NCBI GenBank assembly: GCA_021030905.1
Contig: JAGFMI010000002.1
Coordinates: 1,984,001 to 2,048,000, forward strand
DNA length: 64,000 nt
DNA from: Pyrenula massariospora
Lineage: Eukaryota > Ascomycota > Eurotiomycetes > Pyrenulales > Pyrenulaceae
Reading direction: 5' to 3'
Numbering within the stretch: the first letter of the stretch is position 1; each line of letters starts with the position of its first letter. The translations under genes and the position numbers were made by a program. Below, piece by piece: positions 3,631-5,022 of the stretch. Under the pieces are notes generated by a model. The model did not search any database and was not told where the DNA came from. It saw only the letters and a list, made by a program, of their open reading frames with translations.

Positions 3631-4609
3631 AAAGAATTGCATCTAGCTGTAGTGCCACCTATACAATGCCACGTCATTTATCAAGCAGCCTGAGTCTGCT
3701 AAGATGCACAAAAGTCTGCCTGCAAAGCTGGATATCTTGTGCCGATATTGGTAGGCTGTAAGTGTCACGGCAAGCAGGCAGATAGGGTAATTGGGGTTGC
3801 CAAAGGGTCTGAATCTTCGATAGCATGCTGTTCAACAGCCATGGCAGGCTTTTTGTCTAGGCAGGATGTAGCTCTTCGAGCTACTTAAAGGATGGAGGCC
3901 GCGTTGAACATGTATATCTACCTCTCCTCGATAGACCTTCCGGAGTTGCCATTTGCAATCCTAGGGTACAATAGCGTTACGTGGCTGTCCTATTTCACTG
4001 CCCACGCTTCAAACGCAGTTTTCTGCAGATATACGCACCTTTTCGGACCTGCGTGAGTAAGGCGGCTCAGTGCGTAGAGGAGCCAAATATTGGGACCTTA
4101 AGATCCTTAAACTGGTCCCCCATAGACAATTATATAAAGTTACTATATCCCTCGAGGAGAGATCTCTATGCGCAAGTCGTAAATATCTAGTGAGAGCAGG
4201 AAACCGAAAACGGGATTAAGCAGAGAGCGGCCAGCGGACTGAGCCGAAATTAAGCCTAGTCACATAACTAACTTGGGGGCTCAGGCAAATTCTGTGCGGG
4301 TGACCGAGTCTGCATCATACAGACTCACCACCGACGACAACGCCCTACGAAAAGGGTGGCATATGCCGCCGAACATGGCTGCAGGATGTACATAGCATTC
4401 CAATACAAATGTATTAATATTTTCTTACAGTCTACCTTTTCCATCTAAGAATCTTTAACCAGCTGCTAACCCGAGAACCCGCTCATGCACTGAGGCCCCG
4501 GAATCAGGCCCCCGTCATGCAGCGGCTGAGCAAGACTGGAGGCCATCCTGAGCAAATCCAGGTTTGTATATATTATATATTGAATCAAAAATCACGATTG
4601 ACATCAATT
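3631..4609. other. Intergenic DNA with repeat copy A
   Basis: No convincing gene. The short ORF at 3981-4190 has no recognisable family. From about 4308 the sequence matches, with divergence, a second stretch at about 7389 (annotated separately). Confidence 0.5.
4308..4560 (+). repeat. Dispersed direct repeat, copy A
   Basis: Shares with copy B (7389-7650) the words ATACAGAC, CACTACCGACGGC (diverged), CTACGAAAAGGG, a GGCGGCA/TGCCGCC inverted pair, and a later GCAGCGGCTGAGC/AGCAGTGGTTGAGC word, in the same order and spacing. The two copies are direct and about 3.1 kb apart, flanking the tRNA and the unknown 5.0-7.3 kb gene. Neither has obvious TG...CA or inverted ends. This could be a small non-autonomous element or old segmental duplication. 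Outer limits are approximate. Confidence 0.6.
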
Positions 4610-4729
4610 GGTCCTTTGGCCCAATGGTAAGGCGTCTGTGAGTGATAACCAACATCAATTTCATGGTAATTACTAATTAATTTAGGACTACGAATCAGGA
4701 GATTCTGGGTTCGAGCCCCAGGAGGACCT
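4610..4729 (+). tRNA. tRNA-Arg(ACG) with a non-canonical 48-bp intron
   Basis: Removing 4638-4685 leaves a complete cloverleaf. The acceptor stem is GGTCCTT/GAGGACC, the D arm is built from GCC/GGC, the anticodon stem is TCTGA/TCAGG with loop CTACGAA (U33 present, anticodon ACG), and the T arm is CTGGG-TTCGAGC-CCCAG. The body closely resembles yeast tRNA-Arg(ACG) from memory. The A box (TGGCCCAATGG) and B box (GGTTCGAGCC) are intact, and a T run follows. The interruption lies between positions 29 and 30, inside the anticodon stem, not at the canonical 37/38 site. Reading straight through gives no alternative anticodon loop with U33. It is either a functional gene with an unusual intron or an insertion-inactivated copy. 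Confidence 0.85.
4638..4685 (+). other. Spliceosomal-type intron inside the tRNA gene
   Basis: The 48-bp insert starts GTGAGT, carries a TACTAAT branch-like word at 4671-4677, and ends TTTAG. These are the donor, branch and acceptor signals of the protein-gene introns in this window, and the length is also typical of them. Because the base on each side is G, the boundary can shift by one. No exon-intron base pairing like the canonical tRNA bulge-helix-bulge is visible. Function is inferred only. Confidence 0.7.
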
Positions 4730-4738
4730 TTTTTTTTT
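4729..4738 (+). terminator. Pol III T-run terminator of the tRNA
   Basis: Ten consecutive T residues directly follow the acceptor stem, as expected of an RNA polymerase III terminator. Confidence 0.85.
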
Positions 4739-5022
4739 CTTTCTTTTTTCCTTCTCGTTCGTTGCTTTTTATTGACGAATTTATGGATTCACCTTGTTAT
4801 GGGGAACTTAAAATGATTGATTGTCCCTATCTACTGTTCGTTGTTGTTCAAGTGCCGGTGGTGAGCCTAAGGCTCACCCTAGTACTATCCTAGGTGTTGC
4901 CTTGGCACACCGAGTACTCTTCCCATTTCTTTTTCTTTTGTCCTCGCAGGTTCATTCCCAACCGATCCTCTCCAATGCCCACACTCATCCTTCATCGTAG
5001 TTGAGGCTTGGGGCAACCAGTC

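Follow-up and report, generated by a model that had tools for sequence, protein, structure and literature searches.

Fungal U6 snRNA genes, such as those of Schizosaccharomyces and Rhodosporidium, carry mRNA-type introns. These introns resemble the one described here in a tRNA-Arg(ACG) gene of Pyrenula massariospora, as they combine GT-AG borders with a branch motif in an RNA transcribed by Pol III. U6 is a core component of the spliceosome though, and reverse splicing into U6 is thus easily explained, whereas tRNAs have no link to the spliceosome. A second related system is lichen rDNA, for which Bhattacharya 2000 is reportedly a source on ectopic spliceosomal introns. Such introns are likewise spliceosomal and reside in a structural RNA whose synthesis does not involve Pol II, yet they concern rRNA and Pol I rather than tRNA and Pol III. 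According to excerpts of PMC8527467, the rDNA of lichen-forming ascomycetes contains spliceosomal introns, yeast removes these from Pol I transcripts, and a related idea of a link to spliceosome supply has been put forward. P. massariospora appears to be lichen-forming, judging from one window protein whose best named match comes from Pyrenula ochraceoflavens (77% identity; a nearer match reaches 85%).

Excerpts of a 2026 review (PMC13149111) portray tRNA splicing as a process that does not involve the spliceosome. Canonical introns are recognized by structure and removed by the Sen/TSEN endonuclease and a ligase, as excerpts of PMC4090602 state. The earlier note placed all canonical eukaryotic nuclear tRNA introns at position 37/38, which holds as a rule; the excerpts name nucleomorphs and Cyanidioschyzon merolae as exceptions, non-canonical introns being rare in eukaryotes. 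The introns of the Guillardia nucleomorph, of Cyanidioschyzon and of Archaea are similar to the inserts reported here in occupying many positions, with several per gene. However, the Guillardia introns measure 3-24 nt compared to 46-60 nt here, and those of Archaea and C. merolae carry the BHB motif, in place of which we find splice sites and a branch point (comparisons based on excerpted literature). A literature search covering few subscription journals and preprints returned no report of spliceosomal introns in nuclear tRNA genes among the matches listed. The intron type itself is known, as is its presence in a Pol III RNA (U6), but its presence across a nuclear tRNA gene set appears to be new.

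The window is the whole stretch of 64,000 nucleotides that was analysed, part of a 2.9-Mb contig, and all features of the tRNA-Arg(ACG) locus lie on its plus strand. Exon 1, delimited from the sequence and with ARAGORN, spans 4610-4637 (tRNA positions 1-29) and contains the A box TGGCCCAATGG at 4617-4627. Exon 2 spans 4686-4729 (positions 30-73) with the anticodon ACG at 4690-4692 and the B box GGTTCGAGCCC at 4708-4718. A T run at 4730-4738 follows as Pol III terminator, which forms a T10 together with T4729 (N73). Fungal tRNA genes often have a TATA-like stretch upstream, and TATATATTATATATT at 4567-4581, located 29-43 nt upstream of the gene, may represent such an element. The two exons are separated by an mRNA-type intron of 48 nt (4638-4685) with the 5' splice site GTGAGT (4638-4643), the branch motif TACTAAT (TTACTAAT; 4671-4677) and the 3' splice site TTTAG (4681-4685). 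The branch A at 4676 lies 9 nt from the intron end, and no T run in the intron exceeds three.

Excising 4638-4685 generates a 72-nt tRNA, which ARAGORN identifies as Arg(acg), with all stems paired and no mismatch. The features of a functional tRNA gene are present, including a complete cloverleaf after joining, both boxes and the terminator, in agreement with the textbook tRNA-Arg(ACG) that the earlier note had recognized. The same note had placed the insert between positions 29 and 30 instead of 37/38, which we confirm from the sequence and from the GT-AG borders. With introns allowed, ARAGORN also recognizes Arg(ACG) and assigns it an intron of 48 nt, set two bases further on (30/31 in ARAGORN numbering). 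This border leaves T opposite T in the anticodon stem, whereas the GT-AG borders restore full pairing, and the stem is complete only after intron removal.

Default settings of ARAGORN did not call the unspliced gene or any other tRNA in the window, and an Rfam scan of the whole window at the gathering cut-off likewise returned nothing, missing the gene as well. Searched alone with RF00005, the unspliced stretch scores 36.2 bits, and a tRNA is the sole Rfam match over 4400-4900 at E values up to 10. RNA folding did not exceed chance, with z values of -1.0 for the pre-tRNA, -0.7 for the spliced tRNA and -1.4 for the intron, and produced a cloverleaf for neither the spliced nor the unspliced form. 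Several other identities of the insert were rejected. Group I or II introns usually exceed 200 nt compared to only 48 nt here, and Rfam detects only the tRNA at the locus. An introner origin conflicts with the lack of any other genome match and of near-identical copies among 36 introns, and the site 29/30 is not the 37/38 of a canonical tRNA intron.

The insert is not isolated in the genome. We collected 41 nuclear tRNA-like genes and resolved 38 (23 from Rfam and 15 from T-stem patterns), with 15 of the 38 carrying mRNA-type inserts. The inserts total 19, with one or two per gene, and interrupt the A box, D stem, anticodon stem or loop, variable arm, T arm or acceptor stem. Joining the exons restores the right tRNA in all 15 genes, and by our reading 13 carry a normal 37/38 intron too. 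For eight isoacceptors (Arg-ACG, Arg-CCG, Leu-AAG, Leu-CAA, Lys-CTT, Ala-CGC, Ser-CGA and Gln-TTG), the resolved genes include interrupted copies only. An insert-free isoacceptor is also present for Ser-AGA, Leu-TAA, Gln-CTG and Gly-GCC.

Among the genes with two inserts, Ser-AGA.2 is interrupted in the variable arm and at 70/71, Leu-AAG at 26/27 and 69/70, and Lys-CTT.1 at 12/13, inside the A box, and at 64/65. Single inserts are found at 23/24 in Ser-CGA (3' strand of the D stem), 31/32 in both Gln-CTG.2 and Gln-TTG.2, 35/36 in Gly-GCC.2, 63/64 in Gln-TTG.1, and 69/70 in Ala-CGC, Arg-CCG.1 and Arg-CCG.2. Leu-CAA carries a GT-AG intron at 33/34, the same position as the GC-AG intron GCACGT..GCTAAT..CGTAG of Leu-TAA.2 (L051, G000:C4:622219-622374, minus strand). 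Lys-CTT.2 (L043, G000:C3:627728-627865, minus strand) has inserts at 33/34 and 71/72, of which the former is doubtful. This anticodon-loop insert starts with GTGAGT and ends with TG before CTT, and other AG sites would create the anticodon GTT or CTA. The insert may reflect the use of TG as a 3' splice site, decay of the gene, or a different tRNA identity.

Some names given by ARAGORN were replaced, with L043 read as Lys-CTT.2 instead of His, and L042 as Arg-CCT instead of Thr. The Gly-GCC gene L066, whose insert at first seemed to end in TCTA, is read as carrying one GT..AG and one 37/38 intron. Names beyond the calls of ARAGORN are our own assignments. Three tRNA-like loci, L077 and L099 (G000:C29, ~281-282 kb) as well as L089 (G000:C19:94415), are interrupted around the anticodon by long inserts fitting neither GT-AG nor a clear canonical intron; L077 is Asp-like with an intron starting with TTAAGA.

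The census has a defined scope. The contigs C25 (23,950 bases) and C26 (15,175 bases) are small and dense in organelle-type tRNAs, and their 18 of the 41 Rfam tRNA matches were left out as the contigs were taken to be mitochondrial. C26 carries its tRNA genes twice in opposite orientation, which could be an inverted repeat or result from misassembly. The four T-stem patterns produced 18, 13, 26 and 19 matches compared to 11, 21, 21 and 9 with reversed patterns. Many pattern matches are thus due to chance, and the tRNA genes among them were chosen by eye. For the fourth pattern, 13 of the 19 matches were inspected and none was recognized as a tRNA, and the other six comprised two that were already known and four located on C26. 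The census is incomplete, as Rfam scored 63 of 1116 first-look candidates.

The splice signals of the inserts match those of host mRNA introns. GT..AG ends were found in 17 of the 19 inserts, the others being one GC..AG and one GT..TG, and CTRAY lies no more than 40 nt from the 3' end in 17 of 19 compared to 3.7 expected from shuffles; such counts are partly circular where an insert adjoins a 37/38 intron or lies in the acceptor end, since GT/AG helped set the borders there. For six inserts (Arg-ACG, the first of Ser-AGA.2, Ser-CGA, both of Lys-CTT.1 and Gln-TTG.1), by our reading, the borders can be placed to one base or better independently of the signals, from structure or by comparison with an uninterrupted relative, and all six are GT..AG with CTRAY. 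In 16 of the 18 inserts having any CTNAY, the motif is 9-16 nt from the end. CTRAY is lacking in the first Leu-AAG insert and in that of Gly-GCC.2, and the second insert of Ser-AGA.2 has CTAAT 36 nt from its end. The proto-splice site AG/G is not apparent at the insert sites, since AG precedes the intron in 1 of 19 and G follows it in 6 of 19.

The reference set consisted of mRNA introns in Ras-family genes, where 13 of the 14 stretches between exons yielded 14 introns (L134 none), with borders placed by eye from the reading frame. GT..AG ends are present in 14/14 and CTRAY in 12/14, and the earlier proposal that the Arg-ACG insert carries the mRNA-intron signals of its host thus holds. A phosphoglycerate-mutase gene examined for an intron had none. 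The 22 tRNA and U6 introns are 46-60 nt long compared to 49-125 nt for the mRNA introns (p 2e-5), and the 48 nt of Arg-ACG fall at the short end of mRNA-intron lengths. In contrast, none of the 26 canonical 37/38 introns tested in P. massariospora is GT..AG, and those outside the 26 (Val-AAC, Glu-CTC, Glu-TTC, Gly-GCC.1 and Pro-TGG) show no GT..AG by eye either.

Inserts in the 3' arm were subjected to a mechanical test, because the choice of borders leaned partly on GT/AG. The test required GT, a 40-70-nt span, CTRAY, AG and full pairing of positions 61-72. A solution was found in six of eight genes with a broken 3' arm, with Lys-CTT.1 as the seventh after an anchor correction, and in none of 30 controls, of which 29 were soundly anchored (the T-loop of Gln-CTG.1 was wrong). 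With shuffled flanks, p did not exceed 0.020 in any of the seven solved genes. The second insert of Ser-AGA.2 failed for want of a near CTRAY. Of the eight genes with a predicted 3'-arm intron, five have an unspliced 3' end that already pairs at 11/12 positions, and these five cases consequently rest on splice signals and terminators.

The first run of five or more T in these eight genes lies 16-57 nt from the spliced end and 67-107 nt from the unspliced end. Compared with 29 control tRNA genes (median 20 nt), the distance differs for unspliced ends (p 0.002) and not for spliced ends (p 0.6). Arg-TCT.2, which has a weak T arm, is among the 38 resolved genes and was left out of the terminator comparison. 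Five of the 29 controls have no such run within 60 nt. In Gln-TTG.1, a T4 occurs 32 nt from the unspliced end, and Ala-CGC has its run of at least five T 57 nt from the spliced end.

The same type of intron is found in another Pol III gene. A split U6 gene (L119, positions 52-300; G000:C27:330471-330719) contains three GT-AG introns of 49-51 nt. Its exon ending in ACAGAGAAG is followed by the intron GTCAGC..GCTAAC..CACAG and a 5-nt exon, ATTAG. The second intron, GTATTA..TTCTAAC..CGCAG, leads to the exon CATGGCCCCTGCACTAAG, and the third, GTTCGT..TTCTGAT..TCTAG, to an exon beginning with GATGACACGC. The joined exons read ACAGAGAAG-ATTAG-CATGG...GATGAC, which we take to be the conserved U6 core. 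A further U6 gene (L120) is uninterrupted and the sole U6 gene above the Rfam cut-off, and weaker U6 matches occur on C17 and C32. Full-length matches over 120 bases were obtained for five 5S genes, which thus lack an intron.

Taken from sequence evidence, the Arg-ACG insert is very probably a U2-type spliceosomal intron in a working Pol III gene, in a genome where the spliceosome would serve many pre-tRNAs and one U6 pre-RNA, and the endonuclease the 37/38 introns. The earlier note had weighed spliceosomal splicing of a Pol III transcript against a recent inactivation by an introner or reverse-splicing event. The first appears much the better supported, given that no other ACG gene was found, that 14 other tRNA genes and U6 are alike, and that compensatory changes are present. 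The second, in which the insertion recently disabled the gene and left a dead copy, is unlikely to a high degree. Short insertions in the D or T arm of eukaryotic tRNAs are mostly taken for pseudogenes in excerpts of PMC4090602, and the four isoacceptors with insert-free versions would be compatible with dead copies. However, the Arg-ACG exons are intact without mismatch and followed by T10, eight isoacceptors were seen only interrupted, and a BLAST among the 36 introns matched only the Arg-CCG pair. The tRNA introns are not recent copies of one another.

The search for intact ACG genes that the earlier note proposed found none, which likewise speaks against a dead copy. BLAST of the joined exons against the 37.8-Mb genome of 33 contigs matched only the two exons at 4610-4729, and a search with the intron-containing gene, at E values up to 0.001, returned nothing else. 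The pattern T-ACG-A plus a B box at tRNA spacing occurs at four places in the genome, of which only 4610-4729 is a tRNA. The 41 nuclear tRNA-like genes from the Rfam search and the four T-stem patterns include no second ACG gene. Ten other joined tRNAs searched together by BLAST matched no uninterrupted copy, though this search was insensitive, missing the known diverged uninterrupted Ser-AGA.1, Leu-TAA.1, Gln-CTG.1 and Gly-GCC.1 and the short exons of Lys-CTT.1. A diverged Arg-ACG gene, uninterrupted or with a 37/38 intron, may thus exist elsewhere in the genome. CGT and CGC codons need the ACG tRNA by standard decoding rules, and together they account for 58 of 169 Arg codons in six open reading frames of the window. 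Between gene-bearing stretches, window positions 14001-22000 are very AT-rich (GC 0.15-0.21), with a TpA/ApT ratio of ~1.0-1.1 compared to 0.5-0.8 in most other 2-kb stretches.

Duplicated interrupted genes offer a view on whether the copies are alive. Gln-CTG.2 and Gln-TTG.2 share the 31/32 intron, with 32/48 identical positions in the introns and 63/72 in the exons, and both introns keep GTAAG, TTACTRAY and CAG. Their alignment contains double changes that keep the pairs 3-70, 5-68 and 50-64, with one pairing break in Gln-TTG.2 (a T6-T67 mismatch). Arg-CCG.1 and Arg-CCG.2 are identical at 46/60 intron and 65/72 exon positions, with pair 6-67 changed from T-A to C-G. Dead genes are not expected to keep pairing, and the compensatory changes thus speak against dead copies, as do the terminators behind the spliced 3' ends.

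The inserts could also be archaeal-style ectopic BHB introns removed by the tRNA splicing endonuclease, with the GT-AG appearance being incidental. Ectopic and multiple tRNA introns are known from Cyanidioschyzon and nucleomorphs, according to excerpted literature, and endonuclease-type 37/38 introns are plainly present in P. massariospora. However, a strict 4-bp helix at the junctions was found in 0/19 inserts (0.3 expected) and a relaxed form in 3/19 compared to 3.1 in shuffles. The GT..AG ends and branch motifs of 17/19 inserts each, set against the 37/38 introns, and the same kind of intron in U6 make such an origin exceedingly improbable. It is just as improbable that the tRNA sequences lie within Pol II transcripts, the usual substrate of spliceosomal introns, with the tRNAs coming from Pol II RNA or not being made, as T runs follow the spliced ends at about control-gene distance, A and B boxes are uninterrupted by position except the A box of Lys-CTT.1, runs of five or more T are found in 0/22 tRNA and U6 introns compared to 2/14 mRNA introns (small numbers), and the same picture recurs at many unlinked loci.

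With the insert as a spliceosomal intron, Pol III would make the Arg-ACG precursor and the spliceosome would excise the GT-AG intron from the pre-tRNA. The tRNA endonuclease and ligase would remove 37/38 introns where present. The intron might have been gained by the same route as the other introns, for example by reverse splicing. From the gene structures, we consider it somewhat probable that two splicing pathways act on the same pre-tRNAs, with at least eight isoacceptors made only via the spliceosome and several requiring two spliceosomal cuts and one endonuclease cut. Translation capacity would then be tied directly to spliceosome supply.

The anatomy of these genes indicates that a nuclear genome has admitted mRNA-type introns into tRNA genes, including acceptor stems and even an A box, and relies on having them excised. 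Interrupted genes of this kind would be overlooked or wrongly named by standard tRNA finders, as happened here with ARAGORN and Rfam. If the proposed splicing is true, the spliceosome can process Pol III transcripts that are short and structured and have exons only a few bases long, and a single precursor is shared by two routes of tRNA splicing. The long-standing proposal that reverse splicing can spread introns into RNA of any kind also becomes testable.
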